DNA from: Catellatospora methionotrophica
GTDB lineage: Bacteria; Actinomycetota; Actinomycetes; Mycobacteriales; Micromonosporaceae
NCBI RefSeq assembly: GCF_011297335.1
Contig: NZ_JAAOTJ010000008.1
Location: 186,001 to 250,000 of the forward strand
Direction of reading: 5' to 3'
Length of the DNA: 64,000 nucleotides
Position 1 is the first letter of the stretch. Every line of letters starts with the position of its first letter. Made by a program: the position numbers and the translations under genes. Positions 21,575 through 26,149 of the stretch are shown here, one piece after another. The notes beneath the pieces are model-generated. The model was not told where the DNA came from. It was given only the letters and a program-made list of their open reading frames with translations, and did no database searches.

Positions 21575-21650
21575 CCCGCCCGGCTCCGGCTCCCGGCTCC
21601 GGCTCCGGCCCCGGCTCCGGCCCTCCGGCTCCGGCTCCGGCCCCGGCTCG
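21575..21650. repeat. GGCTCC-type simple repeat
   Basis: A low-complexity run of GGCTCC/CCGGCC units just after the gabT stop, leading into the long inverted repeats. Probably slippage-prone spacer; no gene. Confidence 0.7.
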
Positions 21651-21738
21651 CCGACCGTGAAGATCGCTGTTTCCGGTCAAAACCTGCGTTCTGACCACAG
21701 GTTTTGACCGGAAACAGCGATCTTCACGGTCGGCGAGC
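21646..21738. repeat. 41-bp perfect inverted repeat, GATCGCYGTTTC family, copy 2
   Basis: Arms 21646-21686 and 21698-21738 are perfectly complementary over 41 bp around an 11-nt loop. The core GATCGCTGTTTC matches copies at 10157 and 38687. It sits between convergent gabT and the TROVE gene and could terminate both; length and perfection exceed an ordinary terminator. Confidence 0.9.
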
Positions 21739-21795
21739 GATGGGAAGGGCACCTTCCACACCGCTTGAGCGGTGTGGAAGGTGCCCTTCCCATCG
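21738..21795. repeat. 28-bp perfect palindromic hairpin
   Basis: Arms 21738-21765 and 21768-21795 are perfect over 28 bp with a 2-nt loop, directly abutting the preceding repeat. It contains GGAAGGGCACCTTC, shared with the element at 38654. It lies just past the TROVE stop (21818) and is a strong candidate terminator for it. Confidence 0.85.
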
Positions 21796-21817: not shown

Positions 21818-23347
21818 TTAGAACGGCCAGGCGGCCGACTCGCCGGACTCGATCAGGCCGATCATCGAGAACGCCGCGTCGGTGAGGCCGCCGAAGGCAT
21901 GGCGGTTGGGTACCGACGGCGTGTGGCCAAGGCGGTAGCCCGCCAGGTTCCAGGTGTAGACGGGCACCGTGGCGGGCACCGCCGCTGCCACGTCGGCGCT
22001 GCCGTGCCAGTGGGCCTGCTCGTCGGTGAGGATGACGACCCGGTCGTGGCCCGCGTAGTGCTTGCGGACCGCGTACTCGGTCGACGTGCCCCCGCCGAAG
22101 AACCAGCCGTCGTTCTTGAACCGCTGCACGGCCTTGAGCACCGACTCACCCGGACGCAGGTCGAAGACCTTCGTGTCGTTGGAGAACGACACGACCGTCG
22201 GATCGGCCGCCCGTGCCGCCAGCGCCAGGCCGAACATGGTCGCGGCGTCCCAGCAGCGCAGCGAGCCGTCCCGGCTGAAGACGCTGTTCATCGACCCCGA
22301 GGTGTCGACGAGGACCAGCGTGCGCCCGCCGAGCCGGGGCACGTTGCCCAGCGCGAACTGCAGCGCCTTCTCCAGCGGGTACGCCCAGCGCAGGCTGGGG
22401 GCCGCGTTGTACGCCGACAGGAAGCGCATCGGCAGCACCCGCGACCGGTCCACCTCGTCCGGGTCGGACAGCTTCGCCGCCACCACGGCCGCGACCTCGT
22501 CGCTCACCCCGGCCTGGTCGAAGTTGCGCAGGTTGCGCAGCAGCGCCAGGTATCCCATAGACGGGATCACCGCCGACCACGCCGCCGCGTCCAGCGGACC
22601 CTGCCGCCAGCCCGCGAGCGCCTCCCAGGTCATCCCGGCCGCACCCAGCACCTGCGCGTCGAGCACTCCGGCCCGCTGCTCGACGGGCAGCGCCATCAGC
22701 TCGGCGCGGGCGCGCAGCACGGACAGCGTCTCCGGGATCGGGTTGTCCCGCTGGTGGCGACGGTCCAGCGCGTGCTGGAACAGCTCGCCCTGGGCCGCGT
22801 CGCGCGGGCTCGGGTGAGTCAGCTCCAGCACGTCGGCGAACCGCAGCGCGTGGCTGTCCGAGTCGTACTTGAGCAGGCTGCGCTCGTGGTAGAGCCGCAC
22901 CGCCGCGTCGGCGACACCGCGCTTGACCGGCTTGGGCAGCGCCCGGCCGTACACCGACAGCCAGTACGCCAGGGCCTCGCCGGGCTCGTCGGCCCGCTGC
23001 AGCGCCGCGCCGACGATCGCGCGCGAACCGGGGATACCGGCTGCGACCTGTGCCTTCGCGCCCTCCAGCGCGGCCACGACCGAGGCGCTGCGCAGGTTGG
23101 CGCCCAGGCGCAGCCACGGCACGAAGCGCGCGAACCACTCCGGATCCGCCACGGCGACCTTCGCCACCAGCGCACGGAACCGGTCGTCGCGCGCGTCGGC
23201 GCGCTCGTAGAAGGTCTGCTCGCCGACCATGTTGGCCACGGCCAGCAGGAACAGTTCCAGCTTGGGCTCGCGGGCGTAGCCGGGCGCGCCCTCGGCGGTC
23301 ACCCCGGCCGGGCGCTTCATGATCGTCGAGAGGTTGAACTTGGCCAT
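21818..23347 (-). CDS. rsr: TROVE-domain RNA-binding protein (Ro60/Rsr-like)
   Basis: A 509-residue bacterial Ro60 orthologue. The N-terminal about 330 residues form the TROVE domain (helical repeats; FLLAVANMVGEQTFYERADARDDRF, RAIVGAALQRADEPG, MTWEALAG). A C-terminal von Willebrand A domain follows, with the metal site VDTSGSMNS. Ro proteins form a ring that binds Y RNAs on its outer surface and misfolded RNA ends in its cavity; in Deinococcus, Rsr and a Y RNA tether PNPase. The ATG at 23347 has GGAGGAGGGG upstream. Five Y-RNA-like elements lie upstream on the same strand, one inside this gene's leader. Confidence 0.95.
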   Translation of the reverse strand: MAKFNLSTIMKRPAGVTAEGAPGYAREPKLELFLLAVANMVGEQTFYERADARDDRFRALVAKVAVADPEWFARFVPWLRLGANLRSASVVAALEGAKAQVAAGIPGSRAIVGAALQRADEPGEALAYWLSVYGRALPKPVKRGVADAAVRLYHERSLLKYDSDSHALRFADVLELTHPSPRDAAQGELFQHALDRRHQRDNPIPETLSVLRARAELMALPVEQRAGVLDAQVLGAAGMTWEALAGWRQGPLDAAAWSAVIPSMGYLALLRNLRNFDQAGVSDEVAAVVAAKLSDPDEVDRSRVLPMRFLSAYNAAPSLRWAYPLEKALQFALGNVPRLGGRTLVLVDTSGSMNSVFSRDGSLRCWDAATMFGLALAARAADPTVVSFSNDTKVFDLRPGESVLKAVQRFKNDGWFFGGGTSTEYAVRKHYAGHDRVVILTDEQAHWHGSADVAAAVPATVPVYTWNLAGYRLGHTPSVPNRHAFGGLTDAAFSMIGLIESGESAAWPF

Positions 23348-23409
23348 GAGGTCCCCTCCTCCAGGGTTTTCGGGCGCGCGAAACCCACCCAGGTGTACGG
23401 GAAGGGAGA

Positions 23410-23502
23410 CGCGCCTCCCGAGATCGGACCGGCGGCGGTCTTGCCGGTTTCGAACCGGCTTCACCCAGAGAAGTAACCGCTGCCATCGCACCGGGAGGTG
23501 CG
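23410..23502 (-). ncRNA. Y-RNA-like element E, in the TROVE mRNA leader
   Basis: Terminal stem CCTCCCG/CGGGAGG (23498-23492 with 23420-23414) extends by three pairs past an A-C mismatch. It has the shared core GGTGCGATGGCAGCGGTTAC, the 3' box CGATCTCGG, and a T-arm-like hairpin of 5 bp with 7-nt loop (GCCGG TTCGAAA CCGGC, 23459-23443). It lacks a D arm and a capped acceptor stem. It is 62 nt upstream of the rsr ATG and has its own promoter, so it could be a separate RNA or a Ro-binding leader. Confidence 0.75.
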
Positions 23503-23508
23503 GAGATC

Positions 23509-23538
23509 AATGTAGGCGCGCGTTCCCCTGGCGGGCAA
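23509..23538 (-). promoter_or_regulatory. Promoter of Y-RNA-like element E and rsr
   Basis: Minus strand: -35 TTGCCC (23538-23533), 18-nt spacer, -10 TACATT (23514-23509). Same shape as the promoters ahead of elements A and B. Confidence 0.6.
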
Positions 23539-23577
23539 AGGGTTTGTCAGCGACCGTCCCCGTGCCATCGTGGTCCC

Positions 23578-24186
23578 ATGTCGGGCATCGGGATCTGGCT
23601 GGCCCCGGCCGTCGCCGCCGTCGACCTGGCGCGGCACGCCGTCGGTGAGGTGCTCGGCGTGGACCCCGCACGGGTCGCACTCGGCCGCGAGCCGTCCGGC
23701 AGGCCCTTCGTGGTCGGCACGACCGGCCTGCACCTGTCCGTCGGGCATACCCCGGACCTGGCGGTCGTGGCCGTCACCGCACTCGGCCCGCTGGGCGTCG
23801 ACGTCGAGCCGATCCGCCCCCTGCCCGCACCCGAGCTGGCCGCGCGCTGGTTCTCCGGACCGGAGGCCGACTGGGTCGCCGCCCACCCCGACGACTTTCT
23901 GCCGCTGTGGACGCTGAAGGAGGCCGTCGGCAAGGCGCTCGGCACCGGCCTGCGCGGCGGCGGCCTGCGGCGCCGCATGCCACTGCCCCCGCCCTCGACC
24001 CTGACGACGACGGTGCCTGACCTGGCGACCATGGCGGTCGCCGCGTGGCGGCACGGAAACGTGCTACTCGGCGTCGCCTGCCACACCGCTGCGGCGCTCG
24101 GCGCGCCGCTGTCCGTCGCGGAGCCCTTTCCACTGCCCCGTGAGCGGGAGAGGAGGAACGCGGCACGCCCGAGATCGAGTCGGTGA
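23578..24186 (+). CDS. 4'-phosphopantetheinyl transferase (Sfp type)
   Basis: A 202-residue enzyme that would transfer the phosphopantetheine arm of CoA to carrier proteins. Mg-binding motif GVDVEPI (Asp75, Glu77) and WTLKEAVGKALGTG (Lys114, Glu115, Lys119) are intact. At 202 residues it is slightly short for the Sfp family. It is the only plus-strand gene inside the Ro/Y-RNA locus; its last 25 bp are antisense to Y-RNA-like element C, and its start is about 40 bp from the divergent promoter of element E. Confidence 0.9.
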   Translation: MSGIGIWLAPAVAAVDLARHAVGEVLGVDPARVALGREPSGRPFVVGTTGLHLSVGHTPDLAVVAVTALGPLGVDVEPIRPLPAPELAARWFSGPEADWVAAHPDDFLPLWTLKEAVGKALGTGLRGGGLRRRMPLPPPSTLTTTVPDLATMAVAAWRHGNVLLGVACHTAAALGAPLSVAEPFPLPRERERRNAARPRSSR

Positions 24187-24324
24187 CGGCGTGGTGGTCC
24201 CGTCGCCGGGACCTGGCGCTCTGGCCGCTGAGCTACCGCCGTCCTGACGGACGGCGAGCGGGATTCGAACCCGCGACCTCCCCGTTATCAGCGGAGTAGC
24301 CGTAACCTGCGCACCGGGCGTGCC
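24162..24324 (-). ncRNA. YrlA-like RNA, element C (permuted tRNA-Ile-like module)
   Basis: Terminal stem GGCACGCCCG/CGGGCGTGCC (24324-24315, 24171-24162; 10 bp perfect). Then the core GGTGCGCAGGTTACGGCTAC. Next, in RNA order: an anticodon-arm-like hairpin CTCCG CTGATAA CGGGG (24296-24280), T arm GCGGG TTCGAAT CCCGC (24274-24258), a 9-bp acceptor-like stem closed by loop GTCA, D arm GCTC AGCGGCCA GAGC (24233-24218), and hairpin GGTCCCG GCGA CGGGACC (24213-24196). The 3' box CGATCTCGG is present. It starts 5 nt after element B ends, so the two are probably cotranscribed. Confidence 0.85.
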
Positions 24325-24329
24325 GGGTT

Positions 24330-24465
24330 CGTCTTCCGAGATCGAAGTCGGCGGCGGCGTGAGCCATTGCTCTGCCAGCTGAGCTACCGGAGCCGAAGCT
24401 CCGAGCGGGAGTCGAACCCGCGGCCGATGGATTGGAAGTATCCGCTGCCTGCGCACCGGAAGACG
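24330..24465 (-). ncRNA. YrlA-like RNA, element B
   Basis: Terminal stem CGTCTTCCG/CGGAAGACG (24465-24457, 24338-24330). Core GGTGCGCAGGCAGCGGATAC. T arm GCGGG TTCGACT CCCGC, 7-bp acceptor-like stem closed by a UUCG tetraloop (TCGGAGC TTCG GCTCCGG), and D arm GCTC AGCTGGCA GAGC (24388-24369 region), then the 3' box CGATCTCGG. T arm precedes D arm, so this is a circularly permuted tRNA mimic, as in YrlA RNAs, not a tRNA gene. A promoter lies just upstream. Confidence 0.85.
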
Positions 24466-24472
24466 TGAGTCC

Positions 24473-24501
24473 AACCTAGATCTGCCCGTGCGGCGGGGCA
24501 A
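24473..24501 (-). promoter_or_regulatory. Promoter of element B (and C)
   Basis: Minus strand: -35 TTGCCC (24501-24496), 17-nt spacer, -10 TAGGTT (24478-24473). Start predicted near 24468, at the base of element B's terminal stem. Confidence 0.65.
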
Positions 24502-24519
24502 CGGATTTTGCCGCACCGC

Positions 24520-24620
24520 GGCGCGGCCCGAGATCGAGGGGGCGACGGAGTCCCGTCTCCGGGAGCACAGGCCGCACCAGCGGCCAATGGTGTATCCGTC
24601 ACCGGCGCACCGGGCGCGCC
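24520..24620 (-). ncRNA. Y-RNA-like element D without tRNA-like module
   Basis: Terminal stem GGCGCGCCCG/CGGGCCGCGCC with one bulge (24620-24611, 24530-24520). Core GGTGCGCCGGTGACGGATAC, 3' box CGATCTCGGG. Inside, GACGGA (24600-24595) pairs with TCCGTC (24549-24544) and encloses hairpins GGCCGC TGGT GCGGCC and TCCCG GAGA CGGGA. No T-loop or D-loop motif. It begins 6 nt after element A ends and has no promoter of its own. Confidence 0.7.
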
Positions 24621-24626
24621 TTGTGG

Positions 24627-24768
24627 ACGTCTCCCGAGATCAGAAGTCGGCGGCGGCACAGTCTGCTGCTCTATCCAGCTGAGCTACCGGACCCCGAAGG
24701 CCCGGACGGGACTCGAACCCGCGACCCGCAGATCCCGAAGTAGCCGCTGCCTGCGCACCGGGAGACGT
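24627..24768 (-). ncRNA. YrlA-like RNA, element A (permuted tRNA-Arg-like module)
   Basis: Terminal stem ACGTCTCCCG/CGGGAGACGT (24768-24759, 24636-24627; 10 bp perfect). Core GGTGCGCAGGCAGCGGCTAC, T arm CGGG TTCGAGT CCCG, 7-bp acceptor-like stem CCGGGCC/GGTCCGG closed by a TTCGG loop, D arm GCTC AGCTGGATA GAGC (24688-24668 region). TCTGC before the T arm pairs with GCAGA after the D arm, forming an anticodon-stem equivalent, so the permutation opens in the anticodon loop. The module most resembles a tRNA-Arg. Confidence 0.85.
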
Positions 24769-24775
24769 GCTGACG

Positions 24776-24804
24776 ACCGTAGCGGCCCGTCCACCGCGAG
24801 GCAA
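24776..24804 (-). promoter_or_regulatory. Promoter of element A (and D)
   Basis: Minus strand: -35 TTGCCT (24804-24799), 17-nt spacer, -10 TACGGT (24781-24776). The -35 context CCGTTGCC is shared with the element B promoter. Confidence 0.65.
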
Positions 24805-24824
24805 CGGGGTTCCGCGACAGCCGT

Positions 24825-24875
24825 GTGCTCCCTCGGGCACATCCCGCGTCCGCGCGGACATGCCCGAGGGAGCAC
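24825..24875 (-). terminator. Hairpin after the saccharopine dehydrogenase-like gene
   Basis: 15-bp perfect arms (GTGCTCCCTCGGGCA, 24825-24839, and its complement 24861-24875), 11 bp beyond the stop at 24887. No T-run follows. It isolates the Y-RNA promoters from upstream transcription. Confidence 0.65.
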
Positions 24876-24886
24876 CGAACGGCGGC

Positions 24887-26149
24887 TCAGGCGGCGATCT
24901 CCTCGCGGGCCGCCTGGGTCACCGCCCGAAAGGGCTGCTGGTCGCGCATGCCCCACGGCGATCCGTACGCCGTCAGCAGGTCCAGGAACGGCACCGGGTC
25001 CAGTGCCTCGGGGCCGAGCACCCCGGCGCCCTTCCACACGCCCTGGGCCAGCAGTTCCAGCGCGACGACGGGGTTCACCGCGGTCTGCCACACCACCGCC
25101 TGGTGGCCGTATTCGCGCATGGACCACTCGTTGTCGACGACGTGGTAGAGGTACATCTCCCTGGGGCGGCCGTCGAGGCCCTTGCCCTTGACCCAGGTGC
25201 CCGCGCAGGTCTTGCCCTTCATCCGGGAGCCCAGCGTGGCGGGGTCGGGCAGCTGCGCGGCGAGCACGTCGCGCGGCGAGACCATGACCGCCGACTTGCC
25301 GCCGCCGATGGCGATCGGCCGGGTGGAGTCGAGGCCGAGCTTGTGCACGGTCTTCAGGATCTCGATGAACTCGGTGCCGAGGCCGTACTTGAAGGTGACC
25401 CGCTTCGCGTCGACCCAGCGCGGGATCAGCAGCACCTCTTCGTGCTCCACGTTGACGCACTCGACCGGCCCGATGCCCTCGGGGAAGTCGAACACCTCGG
25501 GTTCGCTGAACGGGGCCGTGGTGAACCAGCCGCGCTCGCGTTCCCAGATGATCGGCGGGTTGAGGCACTCCTCGATGGTGGTCCAGATGGAGAACGACGG
25601 GGCGAAGTCGAAGCCCTCGACGGTGATGTTGGACCCGTCCCGTACGCCGATCTCGTCGATCTCGGAGAACAGGTGGTCGGCGGCGTACCGGGCGAAGATG
25701 TCGGACAGGCCGGGTTCGACGCCGATGCCGACCAGGGCCAGCCGGTCGGCGGCCTCCCAGGCCACGGCCTTGCCGAACTGCTGCTCGCCGAGCATGACGC
25801 CGGTCTTGGTGTACGGGTCGGTCGGGTGCGGCAGGGACAGCGACATGGCCATGTCGAGGTAGTCCGCGCCGGCGTGGTAGGCCCCGTCGAAGATCGGCAT
25901 GACGAAGCGCGGGTCGACCGCGTTGAGCACGTGGGTGATGCCGTGCTCGCGGCACAACCGGGCGACGTCGTCGGCCTGCGAGGCGTCGAGCCTCGCCGCG
26001 ACGAACCGGTCGCCGAGCCCGGAGACGGCCCGTTCGGCGCGTTCCAGGGAGTAGTCGGCCACCACCATGAGCTGGAAGAAGTCACGGCGAGCGGCGATGG
26101 CGGCTGCTGCACTGCCGACGCCACCAGCGCCGACCAGCAGGATGCGCAT
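24887..26149 (-). CDS. Saccharopine dehydrogenase-like oxidoreductase
   Basis: A 420-residue protein of the saccharopine dehydrogenase family. N-terminal NAD(P)-binding site MRILLVGAGGVGSAAAA, then VLNAVDPRFVMPI and a conserved catalytic-domain region (GIGVEPGLSDIFARY). ATG 26149 has AAGGGA upstream. It follows an FAD amine oxidase-like gene by 87 bp and lies in a polyamine/GABA region. Relatives include carboxynorspermidine and lysine-degradation enzymes, but the substrate here is unknown. Confidence 0.82.
   Translation of the reverse strand: MRILLVGAGGVGSAAAAIAARRDFFQLMVVADYSLERAERAVSGLGDRFVAARLDASQADDVARLCREHGITHVLNAVDPRFVMPIFDGAYHAGADYLDMAMSLSLPHPTDPYTKTGVMLGEQQFGKAVAWEAADRLALVGIGVEPGLSDIFARYAADHLFSEIDEIGVRDGSNITVEGFDFAPSFSIWTTIEECLNPPIIWERERGWFTTAPFSEPEVFDFPEGIGPVECVNVEHEEVLLIPRWVDAKRVTFKYGLGTEFIEILKTVHKLGLDSTRPIAIGGGKSAVMVSPRDVLAAQLPDPATLGSRMKGKTCAGTWVKGKGLDGRPREMYLYHVVDNEWSMREYGHQAVVWQTAVNPVVALELLAQGVWKGAGVLGPEALDPVPFLDLLTAYGSPWGMRDQQPFRAVTQAAREEIAA

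Follow-up and report, generated by a model that had tools for sequence, protein, structure and literature searches.

Introduction

Bacterial Y RNAs reportedly occur in over 250 species, at least one of them tRNA-like in each species. Among the closest described systems, two papers (PMC4726728, PMC8394870) present a Ro60-type ring protein of Deinococcus to which a Y RNA docks by its basal stem, and YrlA, as outlined in the second (PMC8394870), combines a basal stem with D-, T- and acceptor-like arms and lies beside a Ro60 gene. An actinobacterial Ro60 with a Y RNA is mentioned for Mycobacterium smegmatis (in PMC4726728, citing Chen 2014), and a 2020 paper describes the Salmonella rsr-yrlBA-rtcBA RNA repair operon, in which Ro60 has more than one Y RNA, and states that bacterial Ro60/Y RNA functions had been studied only in Deinococcus (PMC7790460). 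A bacterial Ro60 with Y RNAs, tRNA mimicry included, is already known. Here we describe a 64,000-nucleotide stretch of the Catellatospora methionotrophica genome (henceforth the window) in which a TROVE-domain gene is preceded by five RNA-like elements, A to E. We consider it probable (about 0.86, judged from sequence) that this locus encodes a bacterial Ro60 (Rsr) together with five Y RNAs, which Ro60 probably holds.

Like YrlA, elements A, B and C have a basal stem and D-, T- and acceptor-like arms and lie beside a Ro60 gene; unlike it, the window RNAs fall below the Rfam cut-off, share a conserved GGUGCG...UACUUC...GAUCUC docking part, come several to a locus and include two, D and E, with no tRNA-like domain. 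The Rsr/Y RNA/PNPase particle of Deinococcus radiodurans (RYPER) has the same combination of a Ro60-type ring protein and a Y RNA docked by its basal stem, whereas here the heads of the five RNAs differ, a second Ro60 gene brings an RNA of its own, and PNPase tethering is putative. The M. smegmatis system is likened by description, as an actinobacterial Ro60 with a Y RNA; Mycobacterium is not named among the best 80 of at least 422 genome loci. The Salmonella operon also has more than one Y RNA per Ro60 but differs in its RtcB, which here lies on another contig. Neither arrays of four or more elements nor mixed heads were described in the literature searched, the central Y RNA papers lying outside that search; the actinobacterial docking consensus, the mixing of heads and of D-arm types inside an array, and the way transcription is laid out are perhaps new.

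A Ro60 gene preceded by five elements

The product of the TROVE gene (509 aa) scores 51.8 bits against the Pfam TROVE model (cut-off 23) and stays under the cut-off of the vWA_Ro60 model (21.4 against 27.7). A profile built from 38 relatives matches 1yvp, 2nvo, 9nen, 9kop and 9l5y, that is, the solved Xenopus and human Ro60, Deinococcus Rsr and two TROVE-named entries, and the metal-site residues D348, S350 and S352 are invariant across the 38 Ro60 sequences. When the predicted structure (predicted local distance difference test, pLDDT, 86.5) was compared with Foldseek, all 13 matches at E <= 0.001 were Ro60/TROVE proteins, with template modelling (TM) scores by query length of 0.61–0.77 (Xenopus Ro 0.77, Deinococcus Rsr 0.62). 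By family, profile and predicted fold, the protein is a Ro60 orthologue, as an earlier reading of the sequence without database searches (the sequence-only reading) had proposed. Among the matches listed, the closest named loci are from Catellatospora, with 84–93% Ro60 identity.

The core GGTGCGNNGGNNRCGGNTAC occurs five times in the window, each time on the minus strand and upstream of the TROVE gene, and a GATCTCGG box follows 67–139 nt past the start of each core, so that the five same-strand elements of the sequence-only reading are confirmed at base level. Where that reading had written just TAC after the core, the letters are TACTTC in A, B and E, TACTCC in C and TACACC in D. Its terminal stems stand as written: 10 pairs in A, 9 in B, 10 in C, 10 with one bulged C in D, and in E 7 pairs, an A.C mismatch and 3 further pairs. 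Its "tandem" array is not strictly tandem, as a phosphopantetheinyl transferase gene on the opposite strand stands between E and C. In all five, the RNA gene adjoins the Ro60 gene and a long stem joins the 5' and 3' ends. Every element ends in a putative docking domain, made up of two helices, the first a paired terminal stem of variable sequence, and an internal loop in which GGUGCG and GAUCUC are conserved. Element spans (Table 1) were set by hand from the sequence; the final descriptor scan (see below) agrees for A, B and E; in that scan the stem of C is longer and imperfect, and that of D is shorter.

Table 1. Features of the Ro60 locus and of the second Ro60 locus of the same genome (window positions unless a locus is named)
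Feature	Position	Strand	Remarks
Ro60/Rsr orthologue	21818..23347	-	TROVE ring and vWA domain, D-T-S-G-S metal site; Pfam, profile, predicted fold
Y RNA E	23410..23502	-	terminal stem and core; head is one T-arm-like hairpin, GCCGG-TTCGAAA-CCGGC; in TROVE leader
Promoter-like TTGCCC-18-TACATT	23509..23538	-	before E; start 7 nt on would be first base of E
4'-phosphopantetheinyl transferase gene	23578..24186	+	Pfam ACPS 46.6 bits; splits array between E and C
Y RNA C	24162..24324	-	tRNA mimic and extra hairpin GGTCCC-GGCGAC-GGGACC; z -5.0; ARAGORN tRNA-Ile
Y RNA B	24330..24465	-	tRNA mimic; YrlA 42.6 bits; consensus fold; ARAGORN tRNA-Trp
Promoter-like TTGCCC-17-TAGGTT	24473..24501	-	before B; probable unit B-C
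Y RNA D	24520..24620	-	two hairpins, second with GNRA loop; no tRNA-like arm
Y RNA A	24627..24768	-	tRNA mimic; best Rfam YrlA match, 55.4 bits, E 2.1e-11
Promoter-like TTGCCT-17-TACGGT	24776..24804	-	before A; a start 8 nt further would fall on first base of A; A-D a probable unit
Element F and second Ro60 gene	L053 8801-8874 and 8998-10662		contig G000:C10

Covariation of the stems

The core and box letters served to find the elements, so their conservation is partly circular. For the stems we used a set gathered without any pairing criterion, through a weight matrix whose training set was 35 elements selected by a stem criterion (loci L033 and L038, whose matches looked wrong, were excluded from training and still scanned). 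It found 385 elements, 366 of them distinct, against 5 in reversed sequence. At positions 4 to 10 of the terminal stem, 92, 91, 84, 58, 58, 55 and 50% of the 366 are paired, compared with 43, 57, 41, 35, 36, 40 and 35% when the 3' halves are dealt out among the elements, and all six pair types occur at each of these positions. Positions 1 and 3 are 95% paired against 76 and 75% in the dealt-out control, and positions 0 and 2 barely vary and so are little informative. When the 3' side is slid, position 4 is never more than 73% and position 6 never more than 48% paired. The argument from covariation made in the sequence-only reading is upheld on this much larger set: as far as sequence can tell, the changes in the terminal stems show a genuine RNA structure.

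The second helix also pairs with its own partner better than with dealt-out halves (6.85 vs 5.09, standard deviation (SD) 0.055, n=376). RNAalifold, applied to 26 minimal elements, recovered the terminal stem and not this helix, whose spacing varies, which is why the dealt-out test was used for it.

Elements and Ro60 genes occur together

Across the 8.39 Mb genome there are six exact core matches, and none when the core is read backward. Five form the window array and the sixth, element F (core at G000:C10:81306), precedes a second TROVE gene, so that all six sit before one of the two Ro60 genes. F ends 123–165 bases before this gene, depending on the start codon chosen; it is a minimal element, 74 nt as folded, and the single Y RNA of the second locus, whose Ro60 protein is 69% identical to the first. 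A similar pair of a Ro60 gene and a minimal RNA is seen in another genome of the genus (G051, locus L033).

In 61 genomes of the family, tallied by genome and not by locus, TROVE was found in 21, a looser pattern, GGTGCGNNGNNNNNGGNTACTTC, in 18, and the backward control in one. The pattern is present in 16 of the 21 Ro60-positive genomes against 2 of the 40 Ro60-negative ones. Five genomes have TROVE and no match to the pattern; in three of these five (L043, L049, L052) the descriptor still finds elements. As for the two pattern-only genomes, the matches in G035 lie near the ends of two contigs, one of which bears the start of a cut TROVE gene, and that in G012 has no 3' box. In the present genome the looser pattern adds one match (G000:C6), which has no 3' box; this match and those of G012 and G051:C9 were taken as chance, the matching box being absent. 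Both matches in G033 and one of the two in G006 lie away from a Ro60 gene (L266, L268). These stray elements, at about 7150-7450 of L266 and about 6945-7100 of L268, occur in genomes whose Ro60 gene is on another contig, and tblastn found no TROVE in the 13–14 kb around them.

Arrays in relatives

The wider comparison covered the window together with 182 stretches, each around a Ro60 gene. Of these, 21 are loci from 20 further genomes of the family, one is the second locus of the present genome, 80 come from genomes (the best 80 of at least 422 relatives) and 80 from viral contigs (the best 80 of 219). Both samples lean towards the query, since the best-scoring matches were kept, and the counts below are not independent, since the loci are related and some are duplicated (L058 and L059 hold the same array, and viral locus L138 resembles L086). 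A first descriptor found 359 elements and none in reversed sequence; the final, non-overlapping one found 376, again with none reversed. Both used the 35-element training set.

The genome loci carry none (3 loci), one (20), two (26), three (10), four (15) or five (6) elements, the viral loci none (9), one (25), two (29), three (12), four (2), five (2) or six (1), and the family loci none (3), one (6), two (7) or three (5). Five elements per locus is near the upper end and is not unique, and the novelty that the sequence-only reading attached to a five-member array is weaker than claimed, with five in 6 and four in 15 of the 80 genome loci. By head, 230 of the 376 elements are tRNA mimics; in 38 only a T arm and in 4 only a D arm is present, 72 are minimal and 32 fall elsewhere. 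The mimics in turn divide into 158 of UAGCUC type, 28 Gln-like, 24 Glu-like, 3 Leu-like and 17 others, D-arm class names that come from our own regular expressions and a reading of 57 tRNAs. A tRNA mimic is present at 72 of the 77 genome loci that have elements; 45 combine a mimic with a non-mimic, 40 have at least two mimics and 29 more than one D-arm type. The corresponding figures for the 71 viral loci with elements are 62, 40, 20 and 13. Examples of mixed D-arm types in one array are Glu-like with UAGCUC (L060, L103) and Glu-like with Gln-like and UAGCUC (L106); a Leu-like mimic stands in the array of L045.

Phages also carry Ro-like genes, and four annotated loci were examined of 91 records with a match. 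Gordonia phage VanLee (L279) has two elements before its Ro-like gene, at 2640-2783 and 2496-2628; the first overlaps an annotated tRNA-Arg(tct) at 2644-2715, probably a false tRNA call. The other three phages are considered below.

Promoter-like sites and probable transcription units

Promoter-like sites precede A, B and E (Table 1) and, as read from the sequence, no such site precedes D or C, which makes A-D, B-C and E-TROVE the likely transcription units. Each would start at the first base of its leading RNA. Simple consensus scanning of 23350-24900 was empty, so the position of a -10 motif was tested on relatives instead. Of 201 leading elements, 99 have TANNNT 17–24 nt upstream of the core, against 6 that have it at a control distance; in the 17–24 nt range it is present in 17 of 24 elements with a gap of 41–100 nt and in 3 of 151 with a gap of up to 40 nt. 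A simple terminator scan of 23350-24900 also found nothing.

The RNAs of the joined units A-D and B-C would be separated by cleavage. In the whole set the linkers of 5–40 nt are A-rich, and RNCNU is present in 65 of 120 of them (34.7, SD 4.8, in shuffled ones) and ACAACTT in 29 of 120 (0.14 shuffled). According to PMC10641625, RNCNU is the motif of four in vitro RNase E cuts mapped in M. smegmatis. The case for release by RNase E is weakest exactly at the A-D and B-C linkers of the window, which have neither motif, so that the cleavage model rests on the relatives.

The spacing bears on whether the elements are separate RNAs at all or cis-acting leader elements that control TROVE expression. 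E ends 62 nt before the TROVE start, the distance from the last element to that start is a few dozen bases in many relatives, and a leader Y RNA could also let Ro60 control its own synthesis. Nonetheless there is more than one copy, elements in relatives have their own promoter-like sites, an opposite-strand gene separates A to D from TROVE, and the elements of L266 and L268 stand where the 13–14 kb fetched hold no Ro60 gene, all of which makes a purely regulatory role improbable.

Short Y RNAs, E among them (23492-23502), often start CGCACCTCCCGGTGCG, for which an alternative hairpin is possible and which contains ACCTCC, letters of the 16S rRNA end. In E, a switch between the Y fold and a GCACC/GGTGC hairpin is conceivable. 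The conserved CACCTCCC start was examined as an initiation or anti-Shine-Dalgarno-like signal; it is present in 47 of 214 leading and also in 24 of 152 inner elements, and so is not specific to the former.

Heads and tRNA mimicry

In A, B and C the docking helices enclose a T arm, an acceptor-like stem (7 bp in C) and a D arm, in effect a permuted tRNA from which the anticodon arm is absent; C has one hairpin beyond this mimic. D and E are without the full set of arms. The Rfam YrlA model (RF02553) aligns end to end with A and B and partially with C (29.1 bits), all three under the gathering score of 69, and gives no match to D or E, so that the Rfam check proposed in the sequence-only reading gave matches to three of the elements, all below threshold. 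In four relatives, 6 of 18 elements match YrlA at E 0.1 or better. A consensus fold of 14 A/B/C-type Catellatospora elements contains the terminal stem, the second helix, the T arm, the acceptor stem and the D arm, and for 9 of its 33 pairs both partners differ somewhere in the set.

The letters of the second hairpin of D recur in all six aligned Catellatospora sequences, the GNRA loop being GAGA in the window and GTGA in two relatives; in the lowest-energy folds of L056 and L058 this hairpin is not formed. E is nearly identical among the window, L054, L055 and L056, and lacks the T-arm-like hairpin, by the regular-expression classes, in L057 and L058. One might then suppose that only A, B or both work and that C, D and E are decaying copies. 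The elements are indeed alike (72–87% of aligned letters in pairwise global alignments with cheap gaps), which makes copying likely, their number varies from 3 to 5 among Catellatospora loci, and the E hairpin is missing from those two loci. Against decay, the folding z-scores against shuffled sequences are better for C (Table 1), D (-3.4 or -2.6, depending on the span) and E (-2.96) than for A (-1.4) and B (-1.8), with F at -2.3, D has kept its terminal stem with different letters in L056 and L058, though the GNRA hairpin is missing from the folds there, and E is nearly unchanged over four loci. We give decay little credence, about as little as a leader role.

That the elements are decayed or odd tRNA genes is the least probable explanation: ARAGORN does call a tRNA-Ile at 24249-24321 and a tRNA-Trp at 24397-24462, and the T- and D-arm letters are near those of host tRNAs (A to tRNA-Met, C to tRNA-Trp), but the order of a tRNA gene (D, anticodon and T arms, closing acceptor stem) is not found, the T arm coming first with no anticodon arm, D and E are without the full module, compensatory changes preserve the acceptor-like stem, and the same kind of docking end is present on elements with no tRNA-like arm at all. 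The two ARAGORN calls are the permuted mimics in C and B. A single parent tRNA for each mimic was considered and rejected. In A, a single tRNA-Met ranks first, alone or tied, in both halves (25 of 28 and 24 of 29 letters); in C, tRNA-Trp is second in one half and first in the other (23 of 28 and 22 of 29); in B, the T and D halves have different best host tRNAs. There is thus no firm parent tRNA.

Weighing the Y RNA interpretation

Several observations weigh against a Ro60 locus with five Y RNAs. Some loci have no elements (3 of the 80 from genomes, 9 of the 80 viral ones and 3 of the 21 from the same family); phages GiJojo and Kela have none upstream or downstream of their Ro-like gene, and Atuin has two weak candidates, downstream of it. 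None of the five elements reaches the Rfam gathering score for YrlA, nor does any of 42 elements in 11 relatives chosen from the best 80. The folding energies of A and B are little better than those of shuffled sequences, and in B the terminal stem is kept by the centroid only, being broken in the lowest-energy fold. In the sliding control, position 5 is still 83 and 78% paired in two of six slides, C/G runs pairing often when slid (position 5 by -3, 83%; position 4 by +2, 73%). The -10 motif is missing from 102 of the 201 leading elements, a simple sigma-70 consensus scan finds no promoter in 23350-24900, and neither ACAACTT nor RNCNU occurs in the A-D and B-C linkers of the window. The only RtcB found in the genome is on a different contig from the Ro60 locus, where a Salmonella-type repair operon is absent.

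Under this interpretation, the shared docking domain at the RNA ends would be the likely Ro60 site, as published work on bacterial Y RNAs and its conservation here suggest. Since the heads differ, one Ro60 could form several distinct particles. By analogy with YrlA, the mimic heads of A, B and C would recruit PNPase, for which a gene was found in the genome, or tRNA-handling enzymes, and would thereby direct damaged or structured RNA towards degradation; D, E and F, without a mimic, would gate the Ro60 ring or bind other partners.

More speculatively, and with the odds well against it, actinobacterial Ro60 loci may keep a portfolio of Y RNAs, with a shared docking end and exchangeable heads that mimic different tRNA shape classes (UAGCUC; tRNA-Glu, -Gln and -Leu D-arm types). 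Each particle would address a different tRNA-handling enzyme or anticodon nuclease, tRNA-free RNAs would act as gates, and Ro60 would be a programmable RNA-quality hub.

Five Y RNAs with at least three head types on one Ro60 would amount to a natural experiment on the role of the head, to which the second Ro60 with its own RNA adds, in a genus with named cultured species. The docking consensus is also a simple finder for a family where Rfam gives nothing above threshold and explains some false tRNA calls; standard RNA annotation misses this rich form of a known system.

Neighbouring features

The phosphopantetheinyl transferase gene, whose end overlaps element C, was not counted with the Ro60 system. 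Loci L054, L055 and L057 have a gap of comparable length at that position, and L056 and L058 have none. Two long inverted repeats flank the region, one at 24818-24881, after a saccharopine dehydrogenase-like gene, and one at about 21645-21793, after TROVE; both are probably terminators without a T run.

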